A stretch of 64,000 nt of DNA, taken from assembly GCA_938743325.2 (NCBI GenBank), contig OW568863.1, forward strand, positions 1,178,001-1,242,000, in the 5' to 3' direction. Made by a program: the position numbers and the translations under genes. Positions 2,515-40,400 of the stretch are shown here, in pieces; position 1 is the first letter of the stretch, and every line of letters starts with the position of its first letter. This stretch comes from Pycnococcus provasolii (Eukaryota > Chlorophyta > Pseudoscourfieldiophyceae > Pseudoscourfieldiales > Pycnococcaceae). The notes under the pieces are model-generated. The model searched no databases, was not told the origin of the DNA, and saw nothing but the letters and a program-made list of their open reading frames with translations.

Positions 2515-2616
2515 AATAAAACCTCCCTTGGGCTTTCCCCTTGTGTCCATCGCTGGACACGGTCGCTCGCAAAGAAACAGCCACCTACAGGATCATCAGC
2601 AGTTTTTTTCACGAGC

Positions 2617-4080
2617 GTGTCTGTGGTGATTTCGAAGGGGCAAGCAAAGATTATACGTCACGCTGACGCCGCAGCCTTGCGCGCATCGCAGTATTATGCA
2701 AGAGATTCGCCGTCGTCATACAGAGTGGTGAGGCCAGCTTCTTCAGCAGACGTAAGACGCCGTTGGAGATGGCGCGCCTTTCAACACCCGAACCAACAAC
2801 AACTTCACGAACCGGCTCGTCTGCCAAACACAAGAGAATTGATTACACATACGATTAACAGAGCAGGGAGGTCGATCCATCCGGCCACACCAGCCGTGCA
2901 GATACCAGACAACACTTCGCAGCAAGTGAAATCGAGATGGAAACCTCTGTCGAGCTTTGCTGAACTTCGAAAAATTAGCGAACAGCTTGTCGCTTTTGAG
3001 AAACATCAGAAGGATGACATCAACAAACTGCGCGAGGCGATCGAACAAAGCACACGTCACGCACCCCTCTACACACGGCAACGGCGCGACATCGATCTTT
3101 CAATACAAATACAGTATGCAAACAATAGGTGCGATGCGGCACGCAGACGCGCTGCGCAAACGCATGAACCGCGCGTCGCGTTCGTGATAACAACATCGTT
3201 GGATGGACTCGACCTTGCGAAGGACCTGGTACCGCAGCTCATTTATCACGCGGAAGTTGGCGTCGGAGACACGTTCATCTTTTACGACGCACCAAAGACG
3301 CCGCGTTACCAATCAGCACGCGACCTGCTTCAGAGCCTGCACAGCTGCGTGCACTTCGTCGACACCGCATTCGAGGACCGGCGTGGCAAAAATGAGGGCC
3401 GCTGGGTCCCGATGGAGAGCTACGAGTGGCGTCGCCAGCGGCTGTGGAATCACCCCGACCTGCAGTGGTTCCGCACGGACGAGTACGGCGTGCGTTGGGA
3501 ACGCGTCGTGGGGCGTGCGCCGCACTCGCCCACAGGCTGGATTAGCAACATGACAATGTCCGCCTTCGCGGTGGCGTACCATTCGCCTCAGCCACGGTAT
3601 GGCAGTTTCAGAGTCATGATCAAGCAATGCTTCAACGCTCAAGAGGCGATAGCAATGGCGATCGAAAGAAACATATCCCTCATTGCGTTGCATGACAATG
3701 ACGAGCTGTACTATCCATCATGGCCTGGTGGCCTTGGCGGAGTGACGTCACCTCTGTCACGATGGAACGTTCAGCAGAGCATTGCGAGGGTGAAAATGTT
3801 CCTGCGGGCGAGCGAGGGGAGCGCGCCGCTTGGCGGGCGAGAGCCGCCACTTGCTGCGGATGTTCTACCCATGGGTTGGTCCAGCGAGCGTCGCGGGACG
3901 TTCTCTATCCCTCGCGCTTTGCAGGATGCGCTCGTCAAGCAGCCAAATGGCAAGCAGTGTATGAGCCACAAGGACAAACTTTTATGGAAACGCCGGTTCG
4001 TGCTCGCCCAGCTGGCGAACGCACCAAGCGCATACATCGCGCTCTCTTCTTGGGCGTCGTTGGCGGCGCCGGGAGGTTGA
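2617..4080 (+). CDS. Glycosyltransferase-like protein; start and 3' end uncertain
   Basis: The frame is open from 2515 but has no in-frame ATG before residue ~267 of the given span, so the true start is either an upstream spliced exon or the gene is broken. The given start is only a GTG. The core begins around residue 190 (RVAFVITTSLDGLDL). At about residue 365 it reads LIALHDNDELYY after a stretch of the form K-x2-C-x-N-x2-E-A-I. That resembles the D-x-D/E nucleotide-sugar and metal site of GT92/GT2-like transferases, with the preceding helix seen in that group. A proline-serine-rich, partly basic N-terminal region of about 150 residues precedes it. The stop lies 11 bp inside the large tandem array, so the native C-terminus may have been altered by the repeat expansion or spliced into it. 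Confidence 0.55.
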   Translation: MSVVISKGQAKIIRHADAAALRASQYYARDSPSSYRVVRPASSADVRRRWRWRAFQHPNQQQLHEPARLPNTRELITHTINRAGRSIHPATPAVQIPDNTSQQVKSRWKPLSSFAELRKISEQLVAFEKHQKDDINKLREAIEQSTRHAPLYTRQRRDIDLSIQIQYANNRCDAARRRAAQTHEPRVAFVITTSLDGLDLAKDLVPQLIYHAEVGVGDTFIFYDAPKTPRYQSARDLLQSLHSCVHFVDTAFEDRRGKNEGRWVPMESYEWRRQRLWNHPDLQWFRTDEYGVRWERVVGRAPHSPTGWISNMTMSAFAVAYHSPQPRYGSFRVMIKQCFNAQEAIAMAIERNISLIALHDNDELYYPSWPGGLGGVTSPLSRWNVQQSIARVKMFLRASEGSAPLGGREPPLAADVLPMGWSSERRGTFSIPRALQDALVKQPNGKQCMSHKDKLLWKRRFVLAQLANAPSAYIALSSWASLAAPGG

Positions 4081-7000
4081 ATTTTCACTACTACTTGATT
4101 ATTTTGGTGCCGTGAATTATCATTCAGATATCATCACAAAGAAGGAGAGCAGCCTAGGCGTGTGCATGCACGTGCGAAGCGCGATCGATTCGTCCGGCGG
4201 ATACCATGCGCCGGAAGAATACACGTCTTTCAAGCGCGTATCTACCCCGGGCGCACGCTTCAGTTGCACGCACGGGAGGTTGAATTTTCACTACTACTTG
4301 ATTATTTTGGTGCCGTGAATTATCATTCAGATATCAAGGAGAGCAGCCTAGGCGTGTGCATGCATGTGCGAAGCGCGATCGATTCGTCCGGCGGATACCA
4401 TGCGCCGGAAGAATACACGTCTATCTACCCCGGGCGCACGCTTCAGTTGCACGCACGGGAGGTTGAATTTTCACTACTACTTGATTATTTTGGTGCCGTG
4501 AATTATCATTCAGATATCATCACAAAGAAGGAGAGCAGCCTAGGCGTGTGCATGCATGTGCGAAGCGCGATCGATTCGTCCGGCGGATACCATGCGCCGG
4601 AAGAATACACGTCTATCTACCCCGGGCGCACGCTTCAGTTGCACGCACGGGAGGTTGAATTTTCACTACTACTTGATTATTTTGGTGCCGTGAATTATCA
4701 TTCAGATATCATCACAAAGAAGGAGAGCAGCCTAGGCGTGTGCATGCATGTGCGAAGCGCGATCGATTCGTCCGGCGGATACCATGCGCCGGAAGAATAC
4801 ACGTCTATCTACCCCGGGCGCACGCTTCAGTTGCACGCACGGGAGGTTGAATTTTCACTACTACTTGATTATTTTGGTGCCGTGAATTATCATTCAGATA
4901 TCATCACAAAGAAGGAGAGCAGCCTAGGCGTGTGCATGCATGTGCGAAGCGCGATCGATTCGTCCGGCGGATACCATGCGCCGGAAGAATACACGTCTAT
5001 CTACCCCGGGCGCACGCTTCAGTTGCACGCACGGGAGGTTGAATTTTCACTACTACTTGATTATTTTGGTGCCGTGAATTATCATTCAGATATCATCACA
5101 AAGAAGGAGAGCAGCCTAGGCGTGTGCATGCATGTGCGAAGCGCGATCGATTCGTCCGGCGGATACCATGCGCCGGAAGAATACACGTCTTGCAAGCGCG
5201 TATCTACCCCGGGCGCACGCTTCAGTTGCACGCACGGGAGGTTGAATTTTCACTACTACTTGATTATTTTGGTGCCGTGAATTATCATTCAGATATCATC
5301 ACAAAGAAGGAGAGCAGCCTAGGCGTGTGCATGCATGTGCGAAGCGCGATCGATTCGTCCGGCGGATACCATGCGCCGGAAGAATACACGTCTTGCAAGC
5401 GCGTATCTACCCCGGGCGCACGCTTCAGTTGCACGCACGGGAGGTTGAATTTTCACTACTACTTGATTATTTTGGTGCCGTGAATTATCATTCAGATATC
5501 AAGGAGAGCAGCCTAGGCGTGTGCATGCATGTGCGAAGCGCGATCGATTCGTCCGGCGGATACCATGCGCCGGAAGAATACACGTCTATCTACCCCGGGC
5601 GCACGCTTCAGTTGCACGCACGGGAGGTTGAATTTTCACTACTACTTGATTATTTTGGTGCCGTGAATTATCATTCAGATATCATCACAAAGAAGGAGAG
5701 CAGCCTAGGCGTGTGCATGCACGTGCGAAGCGCGATCGATTCGTCCGGCGGATACCATGCGCCGGAAGAATACACGTCTTGCAAGCGCGTATCTACCCCG
5801 GGCGCACGCTTCAGTTGCACGCACGGGAGGTTGAATTTTCACTACTACTTGATTATTTTGGTGCCGTGAATTATCATTCAGATATCAAGGAGAGCAGCCT
5901 AGGCGTGTGCATGCACGTGCGAAGCGCGATCGATTCGTCCGGCGGATACCATGCGCCGGAAGAATACACGTCTTGCAAGCGCGTATCTACCCCGGGCGCA
6001 CGCTTCAGTTGCACGCACGGGAGGTTGAATTTTCACTACTACTTGATTATTTTGGTGCCGTGAATTATCATTCAGATATCATCACAAAGAAGGAGAGCAG
6101 CCTAGGCGTGTGCATGCATGTGCGAAGCGCGATCGATTCGTCCGGCGGATACCATGCGCCGGAAGAATACACGTCTTGCAAGCGCGTATCTACCCCGGGC
6201 GCACGCTTCAGTTGCACGCACGGGAGGTTGAATTTTCACTACTATTTGATTATTTTGGTGCCGTGAATTATCATTCAGATATCATCACAAAGAAGGAGAG
6301 CAGCCTAGGCGTGTGCATGCATGTGCGAAGCGCGATCGATTCGTCCGGCGGATACCATGCGCCGGAAGAATACACGTCTTTCATGCGCGTATCTACCCCG
6401 GGCGCACGCTTCAGTTGCACGCACGGGAGGTTGAATTTTCACTACTACTTGATTATTTTGGTGCCGTGAATTATCATTCAGATATCAAGGAGAGCAGCCT
6501 AGGCGTGTGCATGCATGTGCGAAGCGCGATCGATTCGTCCGGCGGATACCATGCGCCGGAAGAATACACGTCTTGCAAGCGCGTATCTACCCCGGGCGCA
6601 CGCTTCAGTTGCACGCACGGGAGGTTGAATTTTCACTACTACTTGATTATTTTGGTGCCGTGAATTATCATTCAGATATCAAGGAGAGCAGCCTAGGCGT
6701 GTGCATGCATGTGCGAAGCGCGATCGATTCGTCCGGCGGATACCATGCGCCGGAAGAATACACGTCTATCTACCCCGGGCGCACGCTTCAGTTGCACGCA
6801 CGGGAGGTTGAATTTTCACTACTACTTGATTATTTTGGTGCCGTGAATTATCATTCAGATATCAAGGAGAGCAGCCTAGGCGTGTGCATGCATGTGCGAA
6901 GCGCGATCGATTCGTCCGGCGGATACCATGCGCCGGAAGAATACACGTCTTTCATGCGCGTATCTACCCCGGGCGCACGCTTCAGTTGCACGCACGGGAG

Positions 7001-10000
7001 GTTGAATTTTCACTACTACTTGATTATTTTGGTGCCGTGAATTATCATTCAGATATCATCACAAAGAAGGAGAGCAGCCTAGGCGTGTGCATGCACGTGC
7101 GAAGCGCGATCGATTCGTCCGGCGGATACCATGCGCCGGAAGAATACACGTCTATCTACCCCGGGCGCACGCTTCAGTTGCACGCACGGGAGGTTGAATT
7201 TTCACTACTACTTGATTATTTTGGTGCCGTGAATTATCATTCAGATATCATCACAAAGAAGGAGAGCAGCCTAGGCGTGTGCATGCACGTGCGAAGCGCG
7301 ATCGATTCGTCCGGCGGATACCATGCGCCGGAAGAATACACGTCTTGCAAGCGCGTATCTACCCCGGGCGCACGCTTCAGTTGCACGCACGGGAGGTTGA
7401 ATTTTCACTACTACTTGATTATTTTGGTGCCGTGAATTATCATTCAGATATCAAGGAGAGCAGCCTAGGCGTGTGCATGCACGTGCGAAGCGCGATCGAT
7501 TCGTCCGGCGGATACCATGCGCCGGAAGAATACACGTCTTGCAAGCGCGTATCTACCCCGGGCGCACGCTTCAGTTGCACGCACGGGAGGTTGAATTTTC
7601 ACTACTACTTGATTATTTTGGTGCCGTGAATTATCATTCAGATATCATCACAAAGAAGGAGAGCAGCCTAGGCGTGTGCATGCATGTGCGAAGCGCGATC
7701 GATTCGTCCGGCGGATACCATGCGCCGGAAGAATACACGTCTTGCAAGCGCGTATCTACCCCGGGCGCACGCTTCAGTTGCACGCACGGGAGGTTGAATT
7801 TTCACTACTATTTGATTATTTTGGTGCCGTGAATTATCATTCAGATATCATCACAAAGAAGGAGAGCAGCCTAGGCGTGTGCATGCATGTGCGAAGCGCG
7901 ATCGATTCGTCCGGCGGATACCATGCGCCGGAAGAATACACGTCTTTCATGCGCGTATCTACCCCGGGCGCACGCTTCAGTTGCACGCACGGGAGGTTGA
8001 ATTTTCACTACTACTTGATTATTTTGGTGCCGTGAATTATCATTCAGATATCATCACAAAGAAGGAGAGCAGCCTAGGCGTGTGCATGCATGTGCGAAGC
8101 GCGATCGATTCGTCCGGCGGATACCATGCGCCGGAAGAATACACGTCTTTCATGCGCGTATCTACCCCGGGCGCACGCTTCAGTTGCACGCACGGGAGGT
8201 TGAATTTTCACTACTATTTGATTATTTTGGTGCCGTGAATTATCATTCAGATATCATCACAAAGAAGGAGAGCAGCCTAGGCGTGTGCATGCATGTGCGA
8301 AGCGCGATCGATTCGTCCGGCGGATACCATGCGCCGGAAGAATACACGTCTATCTACCCCGGGCGCACGCTTCAGTTGCACGCACGGGAGGTTGAATTTT
8401 CACTACTACTTGATTATTTTGGTGCCGTGAATTATCATTCAGATATCATCACAAAGAAGGAGAGCAGCCTAGGCGTGTGCATGCACGTGCGAAGCGCGAT
8501 CGATTCGTCCGGCGGATACCATGCGCCGGAAGAATACACGTCTTGCAAGCGCGTATCTACCCCGGGCGCACGCTTCAGTTGCACGCACGGGAGGTTGAAT
8601 TTTCACTACTACTTGATTATTTTGGTGCCGTGAATTATCATTCAGATATCAAGGAGAGCAGCCTAGGCGTGTGCATGCACGTGCGAAGCGCGATCGATTC
8701 GTCCGGCGGATACCATGCGCCGGAAGAATACACGTCTATCTACCCCGGGCGCACGCTTCAGTTGCACGCACGGGAGGTTGAATTTTCACTACTACTTGAT
8801 TATTTTGGTGCCGTGAATTATCATTCAGATATCAAGGAGAGCAGCCTAGGCGTGTGCATGCATGTGCGAAGCGCGATCGATTCGTCCGGCGGATACCATG
8901 CGCCGGAAGAATACACGTCTTGCAAGCGCGTATCTACCCCGGGCGCACGCTTCAGTTGCACGCACGGGAGGTTGAATTTTCACTACTACTTGATTATTTT
9001 GGTGCCGTGAATTATCATTCAGATATCAAGGAGAGCAGCCTAGGCGTGTGCATGCATGTGCGAAGCGCGATCGATTCGTCCGGCGGATACCATGCGCCGG
9101 AAGAATACACGTCTATCTACCCCGGGCGCACGCTTCAGTTGCACGCACGGGAGGTTGAATTTTCACTACTACTTGATTATTTTGGTGCCGTGAATTATCA
9201 TTCAGATATCAAGGAGAGCAGCCTAGGCGTGTGCATGCATGTGCGAAGCGCGATCGATTCGTCCGGCGGATACCATGCGCCGGAAGAATACACGTCTTTC
9301 ATGCGCGTATCTACCCCGGGCGCACGCTTCAGTTGCACGCACGGGAGGTTGAATTTTCACTACTACTTGATTATTTTGGTGCCGTGAATTATCATTCAGA
9401 TATCATCACAAAGAAGGAGAGCAGCCTAGGCGTGTGCATGCACGTGCGAAGCGCGATCGATTCGTCCGGCGGATACCATGCGCCGGAAGAATACACGTCT
9501 ATCTACCCCGGGCGCACGCTTCAGTTGCACGCACGGGAGGTTGAATTTTCACTACTACTTGATTATTTTGGTGCCGTGAATTATCATTCAGATATCATCA
9601 CAAAGAAGGAGAGCAGCCTAGGCGTGTGCATGCATGTGCGAAGCGCGATCGATTCGTCCGGCGGATACCATGCGCCGGAAGAATACACGTCTTTCATGCG
9701 CGTATCTACCCCGGGCGCACGCTTCAGTTGCACGCACGGGAGGTTGAATTTTCACTACTATTTGATTATTTTGGTGCCGTGAATTATCATTCAGATATCA
9801 TCACAAAGAAGGAGAGCAGCCTAGGCGTGTGCATGCATGTGCGAAGCGCGATCGATTCGTCCGGCGGATACCATGCGCCGGAAGAATACACGTCTATCTA
9901 CCCCGGGCGCACGCTTCAGTTGCACGCACGGGAGGTTGAATTTTCACTACTACTTGATTATTTTGGTGCCGTGAATTATCATTCAGATATCATCACAAAG

Positions 10001-11947
10001 AAGGAGAGCAGCCTAGGCGTGTGCATGCACGTGCGAAGCGCGATCGATTCGTCCGGCGGATACCATGCGCCGGAAGAATACACGTCTTGCAAGCGCGTAT
10101 CTACCCCGGGCGCACGCTTCAGTTGCACGCACGGGAGGTTGAATTTTCACTACTACTTGATTATTTTGGTGCCGTGAATTATCATTCAGATATCAAGGAG
10201 AGCAGCCTAGGCGTGTGCATGCACGTGCGAAGCGCGATCGATTCGTCCGGCGGATACCATGCGCCGGAAGAATACACGTCTTGCAAGCGCGTATCTACCC
10301 CGGGCGCACGCTTCAGTTGCACGCACGGGAGGTTGAATTTTCACTACTACTTGATTATTTTGGTGCCGTGAATTATCATTCAGATATCATCACAAAGAAG
10401 GAGAGCAGCCTAGGCGTGTGCATGCATGTGCGAAGCGCGATCGATTCGTCCGGCGGATACCATGCGCCGGAAGAATACACGTCTTGCAAGCGCGTATCTA
10501 CCCCGGGCGCACGCTTCAGTTGCACGCACGGGAGGTTGAATTTTCACTACTATTTGATTATTTTGGTGCCGTGAATTATCATTCAGATATCATCACAAAG
10601 AAGGAGAGCAGCCTAGGCGTGTGCATGCATGTGCGAAGCGCGATCGATTCGTCCGGCGGATACCATGCGCCGGAAGAATACACGTCTTTCATGCGCGTAT
10701 CTACCCCGGGCGCACGCTTCAGTTGCACGCACGGGAGGTTGAATTTTCACTACTACTTGATTATTTTGGTGCCGTGAATTATCATTCAGATATCAAGGAG
10801 AGCAGCCTAGGCGTGTGCATGCATGTGCGAAGCGCGATCGATTCGTCCGGCGGATACCATGCGCCGGAAGAATACACGTCTTGCAAGCGCGTATCTACCC
10901 CGGGCGCACGCTTCAGTTGCACGCACGGGAGGTTGAATTTTCACTACTACTTGATTATTTTGGTGCCGTGAATTATCATTCAGATATCAAGGAGAGCAGC
11001 CTAGGCGTGTGCATGCATGTGCGAAGCGCGATCGATTCGTCCGGCGGATACCATGCGCCGGAAGAATACACGTCTATCTACCCCGGGCGCACGCTTCAGT
11101 TGCACGCACGGGAGGTTGAATTTTCACTACTATTTGATTATTTTGGTGCCGTGAATTATCATTCAGATATCATCACAAAGAAGGAGAGCAGCCTAGGCGT
11201 GTGCATGCATGTGCGAAGCGCGATCGATTCGTCCGGCGGATACCATGCGCCGGAAGAATACACGTCTTTCATGCGCGTATCTACCCCGGGCGCACGCTTC
11301 AGTTGCACGCACGGGAGGTTGAATTTTCACTACTATTTGATTATTTTGGTGCCGTGAATTATCATTCAGATATCATCACAAAGAAGGAGAGCAGCCTAGG
11401 CGTGTGCATGCATGTGCGAAGCGCGATCGATTCGTCCGGCGGATACCATGCGCCGGAAGAATACACGTCTTTCATGCGCGTATCTACCCCGGGCGCACGC
11501 TTCAGTTGCACGCACGGGAGGTTGAATTTTCACTACTACTTGATTATTTTGGTGCCGTGAATTATCATTCAGATATCAAGGAGAGCAGCCTAGGCGTGTG
11601 CATGCATGTGCGAAGCGCGATCGATTCGTCCGGCGGATACCATGCGCCGGAAGAATACACGTCTATCTACCCCGGGCGCACGCTTCAGTTGCACGCACGG
11701 GAGGTTGAATTTTCACTACTATTTGATTATTTTGGTGCCGTGAATTATCATTCAGATATCATCACAAAGAAGGAGAGCAGCCTAGGCGTGTGCATGCATG
11801 TGCGAAGCGCGATCGATTCGTCCGGCGGATACCATGCGCCGGAAGAATACACGTCTTTCATGCGCGTATCTACCCCGGGCGCACGCTTCAGTTGCACGCA
11901 CGGGAGGTTGAATTTTCACTACTACTTGATTATTTTGGTGCCGTGAA
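4070..11947 (+). repeat. Tandem minisatellite/satellite array, 40 full units of 183-203 bp plus one partial
   Basis: Units start at CGGGAGGTTGAATTTTC. I count 18 units of 203 bp, 8 of 194, 7 of 192 and 7 of 183, summing exactly to 4070-11900, with a partial unit at 11901-11947. Length differences come from two independent sites: presence or absence of 9 bp (after GATATCA) and of 11 bp (after ACACGTCT). Two single-base polymorphisms (CTACTTG/CTATTTG and GCACGTG/GCATGTG) also segregate. Outside these sites the units look identical. Without the 11-bp piece the unit is a multiple of 3 and reads through as a 61- or 64-residue repeat. With it, the frame is lost. The longest read-through is 4162-5280. 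I do not call it a gene. Confidence 0.97.
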
Positions 11948-11975
11948 AACCTTTCTCGAGAGGTTTTCCCTCCCT

Positions 11976-12146
11976 GGGAACCCCCTTGCCAATCCCGTCC
12001 TTTGGATTGTGTACAACTGTGCGACGACTTGAAAAGTAGTAACTGCAACGAGTCTTACACGAGATGTGTAATTACAGGTGGGGGCGCCCAACGACGAACG
12101 AATCGTTGGCAGGAGGTTGTCGTCGCGGTCGACTTCTCCATTTCCC
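11976..12146. repeat. Split direct repeat A, copy 1
   Basis: 171-bp segment beginning GGGAACCCCCTTGCC and ending CTCCATTTCCC, matched base for base as far as I can read at 13359-13529. It marks the outer left end of the retrotransposon. Confidence 0.9.
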
Positions 12147-12200
12147 CATGCCTGGCAGGAACGGCAAAGCCGAGCGTGCCAGACACAGAGAGGGAGAACC

Positions 12201-13133
12201 TCAAGGGGTATCTGCGGCTGCGTAGTAAGAGGGTGGGATGGGTGGGAGTTTCGCGGTTATGCGCGTCGCACCTAGTTCTCGCAGTATGGCGTAGTCTCCA
12301 GCCAGGGCAGGATCCTCCGGATCTCCTCTGCTCGGAATGTCAGCGATGTTTGCATCCGAGTCCAACCACTCGAACCAGACTTGTCTGTGCAAGTGGTCGA
12401 GGTGCAGTTGGTTCACAATGTCTGCGACGTGAAGCTGTGAGGCGTAGCCTTTGGCTACCCATGCGAAAGCCACCTGCGAGTCGATGAAGTGGACGATGAC
12501 GCGGTCAGGCGGCAGCAGATGCGCGAACGTATAGTACGCTGCTGCCGCAGCAAGCAGTTCGAGTACTTCGATCCGTAAGTGCAGCAGCTCCGGTACTGCC
12601 AGCGAAAAGTACCATGTCAGCTCCCCAACAAGCAGCACGCCTCCGACGCCGTAAGACGTCGACGCGTCAGCGTAGATCCGTACGACGCGAGCCTCTCCAT
12701 CGTTTCCGACGAAGACGTGCGCCTTCGGCGGCAGCGCCGGCAGCAGTTCTTGCAGGTAGCGAAGGCTGACGTCCAGCGCTTCAGTGTAGCGACACTCACC
12801 AGAAGATATAGCAGCCCGGAGTGGCGACAGCGGCGCACGCCCGAGGCGTCCGTGCGTTGCCTCAAGCAGGAATCTGGTTTTGCCTTCGAGGACTTGAATG
12901 TCCATCACTGTGATGGTTCGTCGTGCGCGTATTGCGGCGATGATATCGAGCGTAGCCTCGAGTCGTCCAGGTGTTGCGGAGAAAGTCACTCCCTCGGGAG
13001 GCGCAGAACGCGGGATCATGCACGATGCCCTGCAAGTTTTCGCACGAGGAGGAAAAGCTGAAGGCGTTGCGTTGAGCGGTGGCAGAGCGAGCAGAGCATT
13101 ACGGAATAAACGCCACGTGTTGCGACGTTGCAT
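12201..13133 (-). CDS. RT connection/RNase H region of the DIRS-like retrotransposon
   Basis: A 310-residue frame. The C-terminal half carries an RNase H fold signature: an acidic first strand (RIYADASTSYG), a glutamate helix (IEVLELLAAAAAYY), an aspartate strand (VHFIDSQVAFAWV) and a late aspartate segment (SDANIADIPSRGD). The last is a pattern typical of RNase H domains following DIRS and related reverse transcriptases. The N-terminal part corresponds to the region joining RT and RNase H. A complete polymerase palm is not visible here. Its product would act in reverse transcription of the element. Confidence 0.7.
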   Translation of the reverse strand: MQRRNTWRLFRNALLALPPLNATPSAFPPRAKTCRASCMIPRSAPPEGVTFSATPGRLEATLDIIAAIRARRTITVMDIQVLEGKTRFLLEATHGRLGRAPLSPLRAAISSGECRYTEALDVSLRYLQELLPALPPKAHVFVGNDGEARVVRIYADASTSYGVGGVLLVGELTWYFSLAVPELLHLRIEVLELLAAAAAYYTFAHLLPPDRVIVHFIDSQVAFAWVAKGYASQLHVADIVNQLHLDHLHRQVWFEWLDSDANIADIPSRGDPEDPALAGDYAILRELGATRITAKLPPIPPSYYAAADTP

Positions 13134-13203
13134 GAAAACGGCGGACTGAAAACGATGTAACGGAACGAAACAGAAAACACATTAAGGGTGGGCAAAATGG
13201 GTG

Positions 13204-13359
13204 GGTGTTTTCAGGTCGTAGCGTGTCGTCACGCAGTTGGTGACTAGCTTCAACGTCAAGAATGACTCCGGGACTGGCTGCGTGTAGGGTTCGTATCAAT
13301 CCAATCCTTGGGGTTCCCAATTGTACTTATGCCGAGCCCATCCAAACCGTCGACAAGCG
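13204..13359. repeat. Split direct repeat B, copy 1
   Basis: 156-bp segment from GGTGTTTTCAGG to GTCGACAAGCG, identical as read to 15319-15474. On the minus strand each copy supplies the same ATG and about 39 codons (starting MGTPRIGLIRTL) to the frame that follows. Confidence 0.9.
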
Positions 13360-13529
13360 GGAACCCCCTTGCCAATCCCGTCCTTTGGATTGTGTACAAC
13401 TGTGCGACGACTTGAAAAGTAGTAACTGCAACGAGTCTTACACGAGATGTGTAATTACAGGTGGGGGCGCCCAACGACGAACGAATCGTTGGCAGGAGGT
13501 TGTCGTCGCGGTCGACTTCTCCATTTCCC
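13359..13529. repeat. Split direct repeat A, copy 2
   Basis: Second copy of the 171-bp A repeat, directly abutting B1. The B1-A2 junction in the interior is the hallmark of split-direct-repeat retrotransposons. Confidence 0.9.
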
Positions 13530-13621
13530 ACAGGTTACCTAACGGTGTAGATGTAGACATCGTTGATCAAACTGCGATCTCGCGGAACGAACGGCGGACG
13601 GCGTAGGAGCGTGTTGCGGCT

Positions 13622-13771
13622 GTGCGACGTTCAGGTCAATATTGATCCTACTTGTCTAACGAACTGCGGCGGTGCGACGTTCAGATCAATATTGATCCTA
13701 CTTGTCTAACGTACTGCGGCGGTGCGACGTTCGGATCAGTATTGATCCTACTTGTCTAACGAACTGCGGTT
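13622..13771. repeat. Three 50-bp tandem repeats with a palindromic core
   Basis: Three adjacent 50-bp units beginning GTGCGACGTTC, with a few substitutions between them. The second contains the perfect 14-bp palindrome GATCAATATTGATC; the other two carry near versions. They lie inside the retrotransposon, between A2 and the recombinase frame's 3' end, where a recombinase- or regulator-binding role would be reasonable but is unproven. Confidence 0.85.
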
Positions 13772-13818
13772 GGACGAGCATGTGGCAGGACGAGCATCGC
13801 TGAAATGAGGCGCACGCA

Positions 13819-15435
13819 TCATCCATCAGCCCCAAGGGTCTCAAAAAGATCCCAGCCGCCATGAAACGGGAGCGCAGGAACACCAAGACGCGTGACGACG
13901 GCGGCACACGCGGCGATGGCCTGTTGCAAAATCGGCAAAACGATCTGTTCTGCATGCGCACGGCTGTAGAGATCGGGCATACGAGCGAGAGACTCAGCAG
14001 CGGACGTAGCAGCGGGCGGTGAGTCGGGGAGGGCTGCAGAGAGACTGCCACACCACCGCCCAAGTTCGACGCGAAGGTCAGCGGACATGCCGCAAAATCT
14101 GGATACGGTGGGGAGGAATCGACGGCAGCACGCAGGCGAGTAAAAAGCAGCCTCGTCAGGCGGCATGCCGATGCAGCGGAGGACATGTTGGAGGCTGAGC
14201 GACGCCCGATGCGGCGACAGCGGCGCGTTAACGAAGGCCGTAGCGTTGCGCAGCGGATCTGCGAACGGTGCATTGGTATCCCGGAAGATGAAGCTGGGGT
14301 TCGTAATGTCAGAGAAGGTATGGCGGAGGATAGAGTCGAGATCAACACCAGTGATGCCGCGAACAGGTATCCAGAACGCACGGCGCGAGCGGGAGACTTT
14401 GTCAGTGAGAGCATCTTGAGCATGAAACGAAGGTGAGGAAGAGCATGACGGTGGCGCGGGCGACACAGCAGGAACGTTGATGGGAGAAGCAGGGTCCGAG
14501 CGATGCTGAATTTGCGTGAAGCGCGAAACTGAAAGGATCTGGGAAGCCCAAGCAGCGGCATGAGAGCGCTCGAAGACAGTGCCAGTAGACGAGGCAGCAA
14601 AGCGCTCCAACCTCGCCAGAATACCGAGGCTCATGACGCACGGCGCCGAAGACGACGGGCGTTGCGTAGGGCGAAGGTTGTGCAGTAACGAACAATCAAG
14701 CGGAAAGTCGAACCCACCATGCGTGGTGAGCCAGGTCAGGCCACGCTGGAGGGTGAGCAGCGACGTAGCGCGCGTTACGCCACGCTGACGCCGATCAAAG
14801 AGCGCACGCGTAGCGAGCCCGCTCAGAGATGGCGAGATGCGCGTGTGCGAAGCAGCAGCAGCGTCATGCAGATCACGCAGAGTAGTAGCGACAGGTCCGA
14901 GCGTAGACGGGCCGAAGCGGACAAGAATCTGGAGGACGAGGTAGGTGACGTGAGCAGGATCAGCACGAAAGCATTCAGCGAGGGAAGAGCCCAGCATGCG
15001 CGCGATGGCTTCATCAGGAAGCAGCGGAAGCAAGCGCGCCGCATCACGGAGGCGATCACGGCATTGAAGATCGGCAAGAGTAAGAATCGACGATGCAGTA
15101 GGAACAGGGGAAAGACGAGCAACAGCAGAAGGAACGAAGGAAGCCCAGGAGTTGGACGGGTAACGGGCGGACGACGAGGCAGGAGGAGGAAGATATAGGG
15201 AAGAGTTGAGCGGCGCGACGGGTGGTGGAGCGACTGGAATGGAAGGGAAGACAGCGGCGCGTGGAGGTGGTGCATCGTCAATGGCACGAGCAGCATCCGT
15301 CGCGGCATGCAAAAGCATGGTGTTTTCAGGTCGTAGCGTGTCGTCACGCAGTTGGTGACTAGCTTCAACGTCAAGAATGACTCCGGGACTGGCTGCGTGT
15401 AGGGTTCGTATCAATCCAATCCTTGGGGTTCCCAA
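13819..15435 (-). CDS. Tyrosine recombinase of the DIRS-like retrotransposon
   Basis: A 538-residue frame whose ATG lies in repeat B2. The C-terminal half has tyrosine-recombinase character: a helix with SRFTQIQHRSD (candidate first catalytic Arg region), a segment reading CCRRFLPTVSRFCG followed by LGRWCGS (the R-x-x-R/GRW region of DIRS recombinases), and LARMPDLYSR, where MPxxYS matches the nucleophilic tyrosine context. The N-terminal ~130 residues are Pro/Ala-rich. Such enzymes insert circular DIRS-type DNA without target duplications. Assignment rests on motif order, not on a search. Confidence 0.65.
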   Translation of the reverse strand: MGTPRIGLIRTLHAASPGVILDVEASHQLRDDTLRPENTMLLHAATDAARAIDDAPPPRAAVFPSIPVAPPPVAPLNSSLYLPPPASSSARYPSNSWASFVPSAVARLSPVPTASSILTLADLQCRDRLRDAARLLPLLPDEAIARMLGSSLAECFRADPAHVTYLVLQILVRFGPSTLGPVATTLRDLHDAAAASHTRISPSLSGLATRALFDRRQRGVTRATSLLTLQRGLTWLTTHGGFDFPLDCSLLHNLRPTQRPSSSAPCVMSLGILARLERFAASSTGTVFERSHAAAWASQILSVSRFTQIQHRSDPASPINVPAVSPAPPSCSSSPSFHAQDALTDKVSRSRRAFWIPVRGITGVDLDSILRHTFSDITNPSFIFRDTNAPFADPLRNATAFVNAPLSPHRASLSLQHVLRCIGMPPDEAAFYSPACCRRFLPTVSRFCGMSADLRVELGRWCGSLSAALPDSPPAATSAAESLARMPDLYSRAHAEQIVLPILQQAIAACAAVVTRLGVPALPFHGGWDLFETLGADG

Positions 15436-15474
15436 TTGTACTTATGCCGAGCCCATCCAAACCGTCGACAAGCG
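15319..15474. repeat. Split direct repeat B, copy 2
   Basis: Outer right end of the retrotransposon. It contains the start of the recombinase frame on the minus strand. Confidence 0.9.
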
Positions 15475-15655
15475 TAAACTTTACCTGTAGGCTTCCAACC
15501 GGCAGACCGGGTAGTTGAATCTTCGTTCCTCCGATTGACAGACCAAACCGTTTTGGAAAAAAACGTCTTGAACTGAACGGAACGTTACACCACAGAACCA
15601 CTGTAGTCCTCTACTTATCCATTCTGCACTTCCATTTCTGCACTTCATACTTCAT

Positions 15656-21590: not shown

Positions 21591-21860
21591 GCGTACGTCG
21601 ATCCCGCGAACTGAAGGAGGGTGGAACGAACCCCGAACTAACTCCTGGGATCCGGCGCCGAATTCTTCTGCCGAATTCAGCAGTTGAATTCAGCCTCCTC
21701 CATTCAGGTTTCCGCCTCCGCATTTGAACGATTTGAAAGTTGCCCCCGGGGAGCCCACCCACCCAGAGACAGCTCTTCCCATCCCACTGACTGCTCTTCC
21801 CTCCCCCTCCCTCTTCTCCTCGGGCTCGGGGGCCTTCACTCCGAGCTCTCCTCATACGCC

Positions 21861-24800
21861 ATGGCGGGTGCCTCTGCTCACCCTCGCGGTACTGGTCTCG
21901 CGCACGCCGTGTCCGCCCCACCAGCAGTACTCTCCTCTGTCTCCTCATCCTTGCTGAACACGCGCAGCACTCTTGTGGGCCTTGAAGCAGCACCACAAGC
22001 AGCAGAGAAGAAGAAGAAGCAGAAGCCAAGTGAAGAAGTGGGCAGCAAGAGTAATGGAAACCTCGGGACGGCGGCCGATAAGTCCAAAGGAACGGCGCTA
22101 ACTGGCAGCAAGCAAACGACTGCTGCAGACGGAGACAAGGAGACGACGACAACGAACCAAGAACTTGACTCGCAAAAGCAGCTTGCTCAGGCAAGACGCA
22201 GAGGGGAGAAGGAACTCGAGGCGCTCAGGAGAGATGTTAGCAGAGCAGCAGCCTTGGCACGCGAAAGCAGGCAGTTCAAAAACAAGGCGTTGCACGCGTG
22301 GGCGCAGGAAGACTCCGCGCAGGCGGCGGAAGCCAGTCACGCAGACCTGAAAGAAAGCGGCGACGATAAAACCAGCACCGGCGACAGCAAGATCTGGGCG
22401 CTCGAGATCGAGGTGGCGCGTGCCAAGGCGGTGGATGCGGAGGCGAGGGCGACGCGCGCGGAGAACGACGCCAAGGCGGCGGCCAAACAGGCAGCTGAAG
22501 CGATACGCGCGAAAGACCAGGCTGACGCCGCAAGAGAGGCGGCCGAGGCCAGAAGGCAGGCGGCGGCTGACATGGCCGCAAAGGAGGCCACCGCCGCGGC
22601 CGAGGCACGCATTGAGCACGCGGAGAAGGCAAAGGCGTCGGCAACCTCGCGCGCTGCGGCCGCTGAAGCGGCGGCGAGCCGATACGCCAAGGAAATCGAG
22701 TCGCTCGCAGAGCAGCTTGGGGCGCGCACGACGGAACTTGGAAACATCACGTCGGAGAACCAGCGAAGTGCTACCGCCGCTACCGCCGCGGCAACGGCTC
22801 GAGCTAAGGCGGAGGCAAAACTAAAGAAGGTCAGCGCGGAGGCGGAGGCTGCACGAGAGGCTGCCAACGTCGCCGAACGTCAGCTCGCGAAGCAGACGAG
22901 CGCGAACCAGCAACTCGACGCGCGAATCGTTCAGGCGACCAAGGCGCGGGCACGCGCCGAGAAGGAGGCGAAGCTCGCCAGTGATCGCGCCGACGCGGCG
23001 GAGACGGACGCGCGCGCGCGCACGGCGGAGGTGGAACGGGCTAAAGCGGATGCGAAGGAGGGAGCGAAGCGAGAGAGATCACGTGCCCAGGCTGCTGAAC
23101 GCGAGCTTGCAGGCGCGCGTGCTGCCGTTGCCGGCAAGCAGGCGGAGCTCGATGCATTGCTCGCTCGTGTCAATGCACGCGACGAGAAGGAGACGGAGCT
23201 TGCTGACGCGAGTCGGCGAGCTGCGGCAACGGTGGAGGCTCTTGAGCGCGCTGCCGCACCAGCCCTCCGCTCGCTCGTCGCCTCGCTCGCGGAGGCTGCA
23301 TACGGCAACGATGAAGCAGCTGAAAGATTGCTGCCGTGCAGCGGAGACGCTCTTGCGCTCGCAGAGCTAGCCGTGCACGCCGAGGAGCTGTGGACGTCAG
23401 TAAAGAGATCGCTCACAACAGAAGTCGATGAGGCGAACGCACGTGCAGCGGAGGCGGAGGCGGAGGCGGCCAGGACCGCGGGCGCTCTCGCCGCCACCGA
23501 GGCGGGCGCGGAGGAGCAGCGAGTCGCGATTAACAATCTTGCCAAGTCCGAGGAGGCTGCGCGTCGCGAGGCTGGTGCAGCTGTCGAGCGACTCGCCGAG
23601 ATGGAAGGTCGTGTGAAGCGCCGCGAATCGCGCATTGTGGAACTGCAGGCGATCGCCACGGCAAGCGAGGCACGCGCGGAGGATGCCGCAGCGACAGCCG
23701 CCGCGTCGTCCGCGTCCGCGGCATCTGCGGCGGAGGCGGCGGCAGCAAAGAATAATCAGCTTTCAATGGATCTGCGCGCCGCACACGAGGAGGCGATGGC
23801 GGCTGACGCTCGTGCCAAAATCGCGCAAGGGCGTGCAGATGCACTCGACGAGGCGCTGGCGAAGATGAGGAAGGAATCGGAGGTGAAGGAAACGCGCGTG
23901 GGCGAGCTCCGGCAGGCGCTTGCAACAAAGACGGAGAACAGCTCGGAGGCGATTCGAAGGCTTGCCTCGGAGCTTGAGAGAATGAAGGCTCGCTATGATG
24001 AGGCGGCGACGGCGCTCGCGGAGGTGCCCGAACCCGTCGAGACGATCTGCGCGGAGGTGCAAACGGAGTCGGTGCAGGACAGCGACGGTGACAGCGCCGA
24101 GGCAACTCCAGAAGCGCTCCTCGATCAGTACTGCGCTCGCGAGGCGGTGGCACAAGAGCTGCACATCGCGCGTGGTGAGGCGCATGCACAACGTCAGCGA
24201 GCCGACGACGCCGAGGCGCACCTTGCAAAGGAGCGGGCAGCGCTTGCAGCCGCCGATAGTATGCGTGCCGCAGCCGCGGCTGACGCCGATGATCAGCGTC
24301 GGCTGACGGCGGATGCAAGCGAGCGAGCAGCGGAGGCGGAGACTGCAAAGGAACAGGCTGAGACCGCCATGGAGTCCGCAAAGTCGGCTGCTGCGGAGGC
24401 TGCCGGCGCGCGCGATGCCGCGGAGGCTCGCGCAAGAAAGGCGGAGGAGCGACTCGAGGAAATTAGCAGCCTCATTGCACGTCTCGAGGCTAGCGTTCTC
24501 GCTCAGACAAAGGCGACGGAGGATGCGCTCGCGGTAAAGGCGGAAGAGCAAAGGGCTCGCGCAGCGGCGGAGTCTGATGCCGTGACAGCGCGCGCTGAGG
24601 CGGCAACCGCTCGTAAGCAGGCTGATGAGGCGGCAGCCGCAGCCGCGGCAGCGGAAAAGCGACGCGCATCCGCCGTGCAGAGCCTGGAGCCTCTGCGCTC
24701 GAACTGCCGCGCTCTCAAGGCGGCCATGCTGCAGGCTGGTGCCCGCATCTCAGACGCGGAGAAGGTGGCAGAAAAGGCGAAAGAGGCTGCTTCTGCGGCT

Positions 24801-27800
24801 GAACGAACGGCGGCAGCTTCTCGTCTGAGAGCTTCGAACGCAGAGAAGCGCATGGCGGCTGTCAAACCATTCGAGGCGAACGCTCTCGCACCGAAGTCGA
24901 CTGCTTCCGTGCAATGTTCGCTTGCGCCCCCCGCCGCCGAGCTTGCTCGCTCCAGGCGAAGTGCCGAAACACTGCGACGGGTCATTCGGCGCACTCGCGC
25001 CAAGTATGCCGCAGAGCAAAGGCAGACGCGCGCGCAGTTGAAGGCTGCGGGTGTGGCGGTGGCAAAGCGGTACGAAGCGATGAAATCCGAAACCGCTCGA
25101 TTGACGAAGCGTGCGCTGGCTGCGGAGCAAGCTCAGCAAAAACTGCAACGTGCCATTGAGGCTTCTGAACAGGCTCAACAGGCTTCCGCTACCGCGTCAG
25201 CTACCACGTTGGCTAGCGAGCGCGCTACGAATAGGAAGCTTAAGGAACGAGCGAGCGAAGAGGCACGACTTCGGACTGCTGCGGAGGCTAAGTTGGGCGA
25301 GCTTGCAAGCGTTGCCGAGGGCGTTCGCGATCGCGCCGACGCGGCATCGGCGGAGGCGCGCGCGGCAGAAGCGGAATGCAAGAGCGCTATTTTGGCGCGT
25401 GACGCTGCCAACTCGGAAGTGAAGCGTGCTAAAGCTGCCGCAAAGACTGCCGAGGAGAGGTGTGCCACCCTTGAGGAGGAGCTGAAGCGACTCACCTGCG
25501 AAATGAACGCAACACAGCAAGTTGCCGCTTCGGTGGAGGAAACGGAATCGCCGAGCAGCACATTAGAACCCTCCATCATTGTCGCGAGCCTGGAGTCTCA
25601 GCTCTCCGAGGCGGTTTCGGCCCGCGATGAAGCCGTATCCATGGCCGAGGCTGCCGCAAAGCGCGCGACAGAACTTGAGAAAGCGCTTGTTGAGGCTGAG
25701 ACTTCACGCGACGCGGCCACATCCGCGCGCCACGAAGCACTCCAGAAGGTTGAGGAGGCGACGTCCGCGCTAGAGAGCTTGCGAAAGGAGCACGATACGC
25801 TTGTGATGGCGAAGGAAAGTAGGCTTGAGGAGCTGCGCGCTGCGGCATCTGATGCGTTGCTGCAGGCTTCCGCCGCGGAGGCGCGCGAGAAGGAGGCTGA
25901 ACAGGCTCTTGCCGCGGAGCGTGCGGAGAGTGAGACGAAGCTCGCGGAGGCTGTCGCGAAGGCGGAGACACAGGCGCTCGCCGCGAGTGCCGCATGCGAA
26001 GAGGCCAAGGCTGAGGCAGCCTCGACTGCCGCTGAGCTCGACAGGCTGAGGGCCGTCGCTTCATCAGCGTCCGCGGATGCGCAGGAGCAGATCAAGGCGG
26101 CGGAAGATGCCCGTGCTTCCCTCCGTGCAGCTCTTGATGCGAAAGATGTGGAGCTGGCGGAACTTCGTGAAGCGGTGGCAGAAGCCCACAAGCGTGCAGA
26201 TGCGGCAAATTCACGCTTGATCGCCTTCGAGACTGCAGCTAAAGAGCACGACGAAGCTCAGCCCGCTGCTGCGCAGCAAGTGCAAGGTGTAGGGCATCAC
26301 CCAAGTCCCGGGAATGTGCAGAACGAAATGGCATCATCGTCGATGCCTTCGGAGGACGACCTTCGTTCTCCTCTCGTCTCAGCTGCACGCGAGGCTGCGG
26401 TGCGCGAGTACAATATGCGCGTGCGGCTCGAGGCGGATCTTTCGCGCGTCACGGCTGAACGCGACGAACTCGCAAATGCTCTGGCCTCGACAGAGGCGAA
26501 AGCCGTGCAGATGAAGATTCGTGTTGATGGCGAAGGCAGCGAATCGCATTCCCAAGAGGTGGTGCACGTCGTTCCAGAGCTTAGCCCCGCAAGCCGAGAA
26601 AGCCTAGCTACACGCGTTGCGGATGCAGAAGCGGCGGAGGCTGCGACTCGCGAGGAGCTGCACGCTGCCACGCTGAAGGTGGCTGAGCTCGAAGAACGTC
26701 TTGCGTCAGCGGAGCATGCCGAGGCGGATGTGCGCATGCGCTACGACGCTGCCGCGGCTAAGGTGGCAGAGGCTGCGCATGCGGCGGCACTGGGCGAGGC
26801 TGAGATGCTCTCCAAACTTGCGGCGGCGACGACGCGCGCTGATGAGGCAGAGTCTAGGCTTGCTGAGGTCTTGGGTGGACGTGACATTGATGAGCATGCC
26901 GCGCAGAGTGCCGCATTGGCGCGCACTGCGACCGATGTGGCGGTCGAGGAGACTCGCGAGGAGGCTAAAAGGCTTGCGGAGGAGCTCAGGATTGTGAACG
27001 CGGAGGCTGATACTCTCCGCGGGCGATTGGCAGCGGCGGAGGCGGATTTGGCAGGTTTAGCTGAGATGCGAGAGCGTGTGAGAGCGGCCGAATCTGCCGC
27101 AGCTTCGGCGAATGATGACGCGGTTGCCGCACTTGCTGCCCGCGAACAGCTTACTCGTGCGCAGGAGACGGTGTCTGAGCTCCAGCATCTGCTCACGTCC
27201 GCGGAGGACTCGAACAAGGTGACGCAGCGGGCACTTGACGATGCGCTTGGCGAGCTTGCGCGGCTGCAAGACGAACGCTCGCATGCGCTTTCAGCTCGTG
27301 AAGAAGCGGACGCCGAGGTGCATCGCCTTAAAATTGCCTTAGCGAACGCCGAGGAGACTGGTATGAATGCCCAGAATGCGCTAGCGGAGATGACTGTGCG
27401 GATCCAGGAGCGCGAGGAACAAGCGGAGGCTGCCCGCGTGCGTGTGCTGGAGCTCGAAGATGCGTGCGTTCGTCTCAAGGATGTCATGGAAAAATCCGAA
27501 GAAAAGCTTCGCGAGGAGGTTGCCAAGGAGGCGCGACTTCGCGCGGAGGCTGATAAGCGTGCCGAACAGATCTCCTTCGAAGCGGCGGAGGGTGCACGCT
27601 GGGCAGCTGAGCGCGTTCAAATGAGCGAGACGGCGGCTGCTGCCTATCAGCAGGAGAGTCGCGAGGCAGCAGTGGCAGCGGCAGCCGCCACGGGCAGGAT
27701 TGCCGTGCTCGATGCCGAAAGGGAGCGCCTCGAGCATGAGGTTGAGACACTTCGCACTCCCTACAAGGCTTCGCCGGCACACTCGGATGGTGCGGGGTCG

Positions 27801-37414: not shown

Positions 37415-40400
37415 TCATTTATTTCCACGCCGGCTCCTCTCAAGCCATTCATGCACTTCGCTTGCATGACGCTGGCTCATCCATGCATCCGTGCGAAGAG
37501 CGCGGAGAGAGCTGATGCTGGCGTAGAGGCACACATCTGCATGGTTGTCGCCATTGCTGCGTGCACTCGACGCCGCGACAACCAGAGCTGTGAGCGCGCT
37601 TTCAGCACCCAATTCTCCAATCACGAGAAGGAGAGCATCAGCACCAGTCATGTCGTCCGCCAAGAATCGAGACGCGTCATCTAGTGCGTCGGCCACTGAT
37701 CCGCCATCATCGCCATCGCCGCTAAGTGCAAGCGTGTATGCACGCGCGCCTGGAGCCGTGCATCTCCGCGTAATGTCTGCCACAAAGGTGTCGTCGGCAC
37801 AGCCACCTGACGCATCTACGATCAAAATCGCGCCGAATCGCACACAGTTGTCCACATAGCCACGTTGCGAGGCATTGGCGGAATATGTGATGCGACTTGC
37901 CCAAACGCCTGCACTCACACGATTGACCACGATCGAACTCCCCGACGCATCACTGCTGTCAGCTTGAGGCATAAGTGCAGGAATTGACGGCATGGTAGGT
38001 CGAGCGAGCGTCTCGCCTTTAATGCTTTGCGCGCTTGCAGCACTGAGCCAAACCTCACCGGCATCCGAATCCGTGCCGTACTCGGCACGAGCCACAGGAG
38101 CTGCGTGCGGAACGTCCGAGGCAATGCTTGCCGCAACCTCCGCGAGGATCCGAGCTGCATCATGCGGCAGTGGACGACGCTCTGCATCGCGCTCCAACAG
38201 GCGAAGTAGCGCTCGCTCGACTCTCGGGCGAATGGAATCCGGACATCGGCCGATCTGTTCAGCCGCATCGGGTGGAAGCAGGTCGACGCCCTCAGTCGTA
38301 ATGCGCCCGAAGAAAGCCGTGTAGTCCGCATCGGAAAATAAGTACAGACCAGTGAGCACCTCGTACACGAGACAACCTAGTGCCCAGACGTCCGCCTTGG
38401 GTCCTGCACCCACACGGCGTCTGCGATCGAATGTTGACGTAAGCTTGCGACGCAGAATCGCATTGTTTCCAATCGCAGTCGTCAGCATCTCTGGAGGGCG
38501 CACCACTTCCGTGCCGCGTGCGCGCATCGTAAGATACGTCGACTGCTCAAGGCTCGTGCCTCGCAGACCCTGCATCTGTGCTCCTGCTTGGCGCAAGACC
38601 TTCGCGTCGCCAAAATCCGTGAGAACGCAGTGAAACGGCAGGCGTGACTGGCCGTCCAGATGCGCTGCCGCTGGATGCCACAGCTCAGCATTTGACACGC
38701 CAGGCAGAGGTTCAATGAGCACATTATCCGACTTGAGATCGAAGTGCACGACGCCTTGCGCATGAACTGCCGCAACAGCCGCAGCGACAGAGGCTGCAGC
38801 CTCGAGGTACATAGGCAGAGGTGAATCTGTTGCATGAGAAGGAACGCCAAGCACGTGTGCTCGTCGCCACTGGCGTAGAGATGCGGGGTACGCCTTGAAG
38901 GCGAAGAAAAACCCTCCCTCGAGGCCAAAACCATAATCAAGCAGCTCGCACGTCACACGTCGACCCGAATCATCTCGGCAGTCGGCGAGCACGCTCAGCG
39001 CACAGAGCTCGGCATGAACCTCTGCTAGAGATGCCTCAGTGGTCTTCACCACCGTCGCTTCGCCAAACTTCGTGGGCAGTGCACCACGCAGCAGGATCGA
39101 ACGAGCACCGCGCGCGAGACGCAGCAGCGGCACTCCGAACGCGCCCGCGCCAACGACAGGTGCTTTTAAATCCTGCGCGCTCGACGGATGGCAGATAGTG
39201 GCAGTGATGCCACATGCATGACACAGTCGAAGCAGTCTCTCACCCGCCGAGCGAAGGGCGGCAGGCCAGTCCTGTACAAGGCTTTGGACGTCGCGCAGCA
39301 GCCGTAATCCAGCAGGGTCCCTGCGAAGACTTGCGGTGAGCACACGCGACACTTCTTCAAGTTCCAACTCTGCGCCATGAAGCATTTGCCATCCACTATG
39401 TTCGTCGAGCAACAACAGCAGGGTCAGCTCAACCAACGTAGCGCGCAATGCAGGGGTCGTGACTACAGTGTCGCCCTTCAAGACGCCGTTCACAGGTGCG
39501 AAGAATCCCTCGGGAAAGATATTGGCGGCATCTGCGATGGGACTTCGCACTTCACTCTGCGGTTGCGAATATACCGTGAATCGCGCGCTCGGCGTGTCCA
39601 TGATCCCATCTTTGGTCGCATCAAGTCCAAGCAAAAGCTTGGGAACCATTCCCACGGTGTTCGCAGGCGTGTGTGGCGTCGCCCAGCTCACAGGCGTTTT
39701 CGAGCGAGCTCGGTCGAGCGGAGTTGCTTCAACTGCGATTTCTTTCGAAGCGTCCACATCCTCAACCTCCGAATCAGCCGAGTCGTATTTCGGCGCCAGC
39801 TCGCTCTGCTCTTGAAGATTCCGATAATTGGCCACTTTTTCCTCCAATTCATCGGAACCCATGCTTTCTAAGCTTTCTAAGTGAAGCATGCCCTTCTTCT
39901 GCTTCGCCTCCTCCTCTGCCGCCTCGAGCGCCTCGAGCGCCTCCACGTCATCCTCGAGATCGCCCGTGAACTCGTACGCGCCGGGTGGACTCTTCTTCTG
40001 CTTCGCCTCCTCCTCTGCCGCCTCGAGAGCCTCGAGCGCCTCCACGTCATCCTCGAGATCGCCCGTGAACTCGTACGCGCCGGGTGGACTCTTCTTCTGC
40101 TTCGCCTCCTCCTCTGCCGCCTCGAGAGCCTCGAGCGCCTCCACGTCATCCTCGAGATCGCCCGTGAACTCGTACGCGCCGGGTGGACTCTTCTTCTGCT
40201 TCGCCTCCTCCTCTGCCGCCTCGAGAGCCTCGAGCGCCTCCACGTCATCCTCGAGATCGCCCGTAAATTCGATGACCCCCTTTGACACCGGAGCCGCGGA
40301 TGTGTCTTCAGCTGCCGATGGCTTCCCTTGCGATGGCAATATCGGCAGAGGGGGCGCTGTGGCACCCTGGTATGGAATTGGCGCCACTTCAAAGTAGTCC

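Follow-up and report, generated by a model that had tools for sequence, protein, structure and literature searches.

What kind of sequence is the tandem array that lies between ORFs on one contig of Pycnococcus provasolii, and how did it come to be there? An earlier note, made from the sequence alone, described it as a modular satellite and named both a centromeric or other chromosome-level role and simple VNTR drift as explanations. We analyzed the array within a window of 64,000 nucleotides, the whole stretch under study (C3:1,178,001-1,242,000), and across the assembly (32,333,900 bases, 46 contigs). We consider it very probable that this is a single-locus, non-coding array that carries a variant-repeat (minisatellite-type) internal map and whose recent growth involved duplication of blocks together with conversion-like exchange.

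Structure of the array

Tandem Repeats Finder reported a tandem array at 4070-11947 (period 203, 40.2 copies), and its score of 12,825 is far beyond chance. No other tandem array in the window is as long; the runner-up spans 379 bp. Unit boundaries were set by splitting at a constant 24-base start, which gave the following parts:

4070..11900, + strand (the reading orientation): 40 full tandem units of 13 types
11901..11947, + strand: truncated 41st unit of 47 bp

Splitting reproduced the coordinates, the head-to-tail layout, and the 40 full units given previously, together with the length counts (18 units of 203 bp, 8 of 194 bp, 7 of 192 bp, and 7 of 183 bp). The claim that these lengths sum exactly to the array did not hold: full units account for 7,831 of its 7,878 bp, and the remainder is the 47-bp partial unit. 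Unit length is determined, as had been proposed, by two indels of 9 and 11 bp that are independent of each other.

Differences among the 40 units were confined to six sites, namely, the two indels and four bases. Two of the variable bases lie outside the indels (C/T in CTACTA[C/T]TTG and T/C in CATGCA[T/C]GTG), and the other two sit within the 11-bp segment, which occurs as three alleles, TGCAAGCGCGT, TTCATGCGCGT, and TTCAAGCGCGT. The last of these was found once only, in the leftmost unit of the array (unit 1), and is the sole allele private to one unit. The six sites define 13 unit types, compared with 10 for the four switches originally proposed; the count of two base switches was too low. 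The rest of the unit had been called invariant; apart from the six sites it is indeed identical in 40/40 units, once the two additional variable bases are taken into account. On the whole, the earlier description was largely good and is confirmed in part.

The 9-bp and 11-bp indels occur in all four combinations (18, 8, 7, and 7 units), and all four likewise occur when the 9-bp indel is paired with the T/C site, while the C/T site at CTACTA forms only three combinations with either. The presence of four combinations for the first two pairs implies either exchange within units or repeated mutation.

Order of the units

Written with one letter for each unit type, the array reads LBGGGCCBDFCAEBKIDFCAHJDMEBKIHJDFCAEBAABA. 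This order is non-random, and its block structure was absent from the earlier description. Exact repeats of at least three units contained 27 of the 40 units, compared with a mean of 1.6 and a maximum of 18 in shuffled orders (0/5,000 as high), and the longest unit-level exact repeat, of six units, was equalled in none of the 5,000 shuffles. The longest exact repeats at the level of bases were 1,324 bp (offset 4,308), 957 bp (2,742), 957 bp (1,566), 898 bp (2,347), and 782 bp (1,544), including the following:

5501..6824, + strand: 1,324-bp block, copy 1 of the longest exact internal repeat
9809..11132, + strand: 1,324-bp block, copy 2, at an offset of 4,308 bp
6390..7287, + strand: 898-bp block with an exact copy at 8737-9634, at an offset of 2,347 bp

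Unit-type identity exceeded that of shuffles at lags of 8, 12, and 14 units (P = 0.008, 0.016, and 0.038, uncorrected for 20 lags). The blocks DFCA, EBKI, and HJ reappear in varying combinations; parsed by eye, the array is fairly described as a higher-order repeat that spans some 8-10 units and has suffered losses.

Near-identical repeats are hard to assemble, and copies could have been collapsed or invented in the assembly. We regard such an artefact as exceedingly improbable, given that the unit order is aperiodic and that the contig, at 1.34 Mb, has telomere-like repeats at both ends.

Genomic distribution and the centromere question

Contig C3 (1,343,435 bp) has CTAACC-type repeats at its start and TTAGGG at its end; with TTAGGG-type repeats on both sides, it resembles a whole chromosome. 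At these ends (L033 1-638; L032 9688-10000), the TTAGGG-type repeats adjoin a 12-bp variant of the CAATTAGGGTTA type. TTTAGGG telomeres were rejected for C3, since that motif had 20 assembly matches, mostly away from contig ends, and the C3 ends are TTAGGG. The array starts at C3 position 1,182,070, 88% of the way along the contig, and ends 153 kb from its right end. An amino-acid-transporter-like ORF lies 1.9 kb before it and a 347-aa ORF 3.7 kb after it. Farther along the window are a 2,840-aa ORF (21684-30206) with no Pfam match at 0.001 and a 2,382-aa ORF (37415-44563) with a protein kinase domain.

The unit gave at least 41 matches in the assembly, whether the threshold was E <= 0.001 or E <= 10, and among the matches listed all fell within the array; at E <= 10, none of those listed lay elsewhere, the other 45 contigs included. 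In a separate observation on the assembly, there were 51 light-harvesting protein matches, with two clusters on C31 (133072-142609 and 360395-368369) in which many scores were identical; the best PDB relatives of one such protein were LHCI and Lhca1 chains. The light-harvesting matches and these relatives indicate an alga of the green lineage.

The earlier note had held that one array per chromosome would favor a centromere-like role, and within the reach of the search the idea fails this test. Among the matches listed, the unit was seen on C3 alone rather than on each of the chromosomes, and the single locus is just 7.9 kb long and lies between ORFs. Many centromeric satellites have units of a length comparable to the 183-203 bp seen here, the array is far longer than any other in the window, and no further array of more than 1 kb was present in 58,403 other genome bases (a non-random sample). 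Even so, it is very unlikely that the array is a satellite specific to C3 with a centromeric or other chromosome-level role. The unit length had also been described as near nucleosome spacing; the length itself stands, but steps of AA/TT/TA/AT showed no 10-bp period stronger than background (they rank at the 0.45 quantile among 276 segments), and nucleosome phasing was rejected on this basis. Furthermore, green-algal centromeres are described as rich in transposable elements, and for two Chlorella species a tandem satellite is not reported in the cited passages (PMC11005252).

A centromere role of the array is thus unsupported. A more specific proposal sees in the array a young satellite peculiar to C3, its founder variants still segregating, that serves as the functional centromere of this chromosome or as the seed of one. 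This is extremely doubtful; if it were true, the C3 centromere satellite would have arisen in a lineage from which centromeres made of transposable elements have been described.

Tests for RNA and coding content

The size and homogeneity of the units would also be compatible with repeats of a small-RNA gene, and each unit contains a 33-bp inverted repeat with 13/16 pairs (40 copies), matched in quality in only 1 of 2,000 unit shuffles and by 4 of 56,030 background windows of 33 bp. That the units are copies of a small non-coding RNA gene is nevertheless highly improbable, and this reading was rejected. The window had no Rfam match at gathering scores, and positions 4000-5000 had none even to E = 5; no tRNA was found, and RNA folds of one unit were no better than those of shuffles (z = -0.69 and -0.13); as DNA, a 192-nt stretch folded mildly better than shuffles (z = -1.87; 8/200 shuffles). 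We speculate that the unit hairpin might promote breakage and exchange.

Alternatively, the array could be the remnant of an amplified coding repeat, with an open unit of 61 or 64 residues in which the 9-bp indel keeps the frame and the 11-bp segment breaks it. Units of 183 and 192 bp are open in forward frame 0 alone, and the longest ORF, of 372 aa, runs across units lacking the 11-bp segment. However, 25% of shuffled units likewise had an open frame, and the frame-breaking segment is carried by 26/40 units. The codon score was 0.039-0.054. Gene segments read in frame span -0.035 to 0.414 (5-95%), which includes this score, but the out-of-frame range (up to 0.099) includes it as well. The open-frame protein had at least 36 genome matches at E <= 1, all in the array, with no relative beyond it in the genome at this threshold; a PDB search to E <= 5 gave none either, and the best Pfam match for two units reached only E = 0.033. 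The 372-aa ORF narrowly passed the Pfam cut-offs for PF00117 (24.4 versus 22.8 bits) and PF09228 (25.4 versus 22.2 bits); we rejected both, reading them as scores summed over identical copies and hence as noise. A coding origin of the array is possible but weak, and we consider the coding-repeat remnant very unlikely.

Sequences flanking the array

The left flank is related to a locus on contig C10:

2595..4074, + strand: rearranged copy of the C10 locus (L018), ~1.1 kb shorter than in C10

Window positions 2595-3952 matched L018 (C10:554,000-563,500, minus strand) with 94.1% identity over 1,364 columns, and positions 3948-4074 matched it with 98.4% identity over 127 columns; the ~1.1 kb that lies between the two matching pieces in C10 is absent from C3. 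The internal junction shares 5 bp, TGGCA (3948-3952), and so does the junction with the array, CGGGA (4070-4074). On the strength of these 5-bp junctions in one comparison, we infer that the flank was joined at microhomology. The C10 counterpart has two ORFs, one of 709 aa without a Pfam match and one of 344 aa with a methyltransferase domain, and the 487-aa ORF of C3 (window 2617-4080; L018 3676-7038, minus strand) consists of part of the 709-aa ORF fused to the start of the methyltransferase ORF. All four indels relative to C10 are multiples of three, suggesting that the C3 copy may have remained coding for some period. In the coding part of the flank, 30 of 1,293 aligned bases differ from the C10 source (dN 0.018, dS 0.041; NG86). 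The sequence immediately upstream, 2178-2625, was rejected as a portion of a repeat, being single copy in the assembly.

On the right, the array is followed closely by two further features:

11945..11968, unstranded: perfect inverted repeat GAAAACCT-TTCTCGAG-AGGTTTTC spanning the right end of the array
11976..15483, unstranded: ~3.5-kb interspersed repeat element (split direct repeats), neighbor of the array

The inverted repeat had one assembly match when up to 3 mismatches were allowed. A single match leaves a Helitron family unsupported, and we rejected the hairpin as a Helitron-like end. The element begins 28 bp beyond the end of the partial unit, and its first 2 kb, taken in pieces, matched the assembly at 48 or more places or part-places. 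Its split direct repeats are of 171 bp (11976-12146 and 13359-13529) and 156 bp (13204-13359 and 15319-15474). This arrangement (A1, B1A2, B2) resembles that of tyrosine-recombinase retroelements (Ngaro/DIRS) in layout only; two element ORFs had no Pfam domain at E <= 1, which makes the name Ngaro/DIRS a lead only. The element also contains a 50-bp repeat present three times (window 13615-13769), and its copy on C33 (L020) has the same repeat.

We considered whether the array is carried inside this element and rejected the idea, as the element's other places in the assembly were without a unit match. The element adjoins the array and forms no part of it. Satellites can grow from short tandem arrays within retrotransposons, according to the cited passages of PMC7004042. 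The locus resembles the cases described there in having a repeated element 28 bp away and differs from them in that the examined copies of that element are without the array unit.

Growth of the array

Units that differ only at six sites beside a diverged flank point to either recent growth or continuing homogenization. With an equal divergence time and no homogenization, many private changes would be expected among the units. Of the two, we prefer recent growth, as inferred from the sequence comparison. The earlier note had proposed strong homogenization with switches that stay polymorphic; the uniformity is real, but it is better described as recent expansion from few founders with exchange within units.

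We asked what kinds of exchange produce such an array in a toy simulation seeded with four founder types. When unequal exchange acted alone (four settings, 295-300 runs each), arrays collapsed to a median of 1-2 unit types; diversity was too low, and pure unequal exchange was rejected. In a second toy simulation, with duplication bias and conversion varied over 30 settings of up to 250 runs each, strong duplication bias with conversion came nearest to the observed summary (up to 18% of runs in the best setting), compared with 0.4% of runs for unbiased exchange without conversion. In each of the 30 settings, the 13 observed types equalled or exceeded the 95th percentile, and one setting reached them; observed diversity thus exceeds what the toy simulation prefers, and the simulation is not a fit. 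It supports the kind of process, under the model's own assumptions, and not its rates. The diversity seen may require exchange between distinct array alleles, a process outside the toy simulation.

We hypothesize the following course of events. A rearrangement at microhomology would have set the C10-derived segment next to a founder sequence, which was not found. A few founder units bearing the six differences would then have multiplied through duplications that copied as many as several units at a time, by unequal exchange or replication slippage, and short conversion-like exchanges would have reshuffled the switches inside units. Array growth would be more recent than the flanking duplication. 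The length switches themselves may be small deletions or insertions, polymorphic by chance, for which a function is unnecessary.

Relation to known systems and significance

Satellite DNA with higher-order repeats commonly forms long arrays on many chromosomes. Our array is like such DNA in its monomer of ~200 bp, its homogeneous units, and its repeated multi-unit blocks, which exceed chance (27/40 units; 0/5,000 shuffles). It is unlike such DNA in occupying one 7.9-kb locus, with no long arrays on several chromosomes among the matches listed, and in having blocks that are partial and irregular. It also resembles the hypervariable minisatellites studied by MVR mapping, such as human MSY1, as portrayed in the cited passages of PMC2599865 and PMC2674676, in having variant units at a single locus and block duplications; in those passages, isometric exchanges in such minisatellites are ascribed to gene conversion. 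It shares with them interspersed variant units (13 types in mosaic order), whereas its units of 183-203 bp exceed the 7-100 bp motif given for minisatellites (PMC2674676, cited passage). VNTR drift, one of the explanations offered previously, fits as regards the variant-repeat map at one locus and not as regards unit length, and the earlier interpretation overall is partly supported. Most likely, the array evolves like a variant-repeat minisatellite whose units are unusually long.

By itself the array settles no open question. If this reading is true, it would be a handy strain marker, and a probable early variant would persist at its edge. The locus would then be a small, fully resolved case of a satellite-sized array starting at one locus, in which a shared-base junction, few founders, block duplication, and within-unit exchange are visible together.
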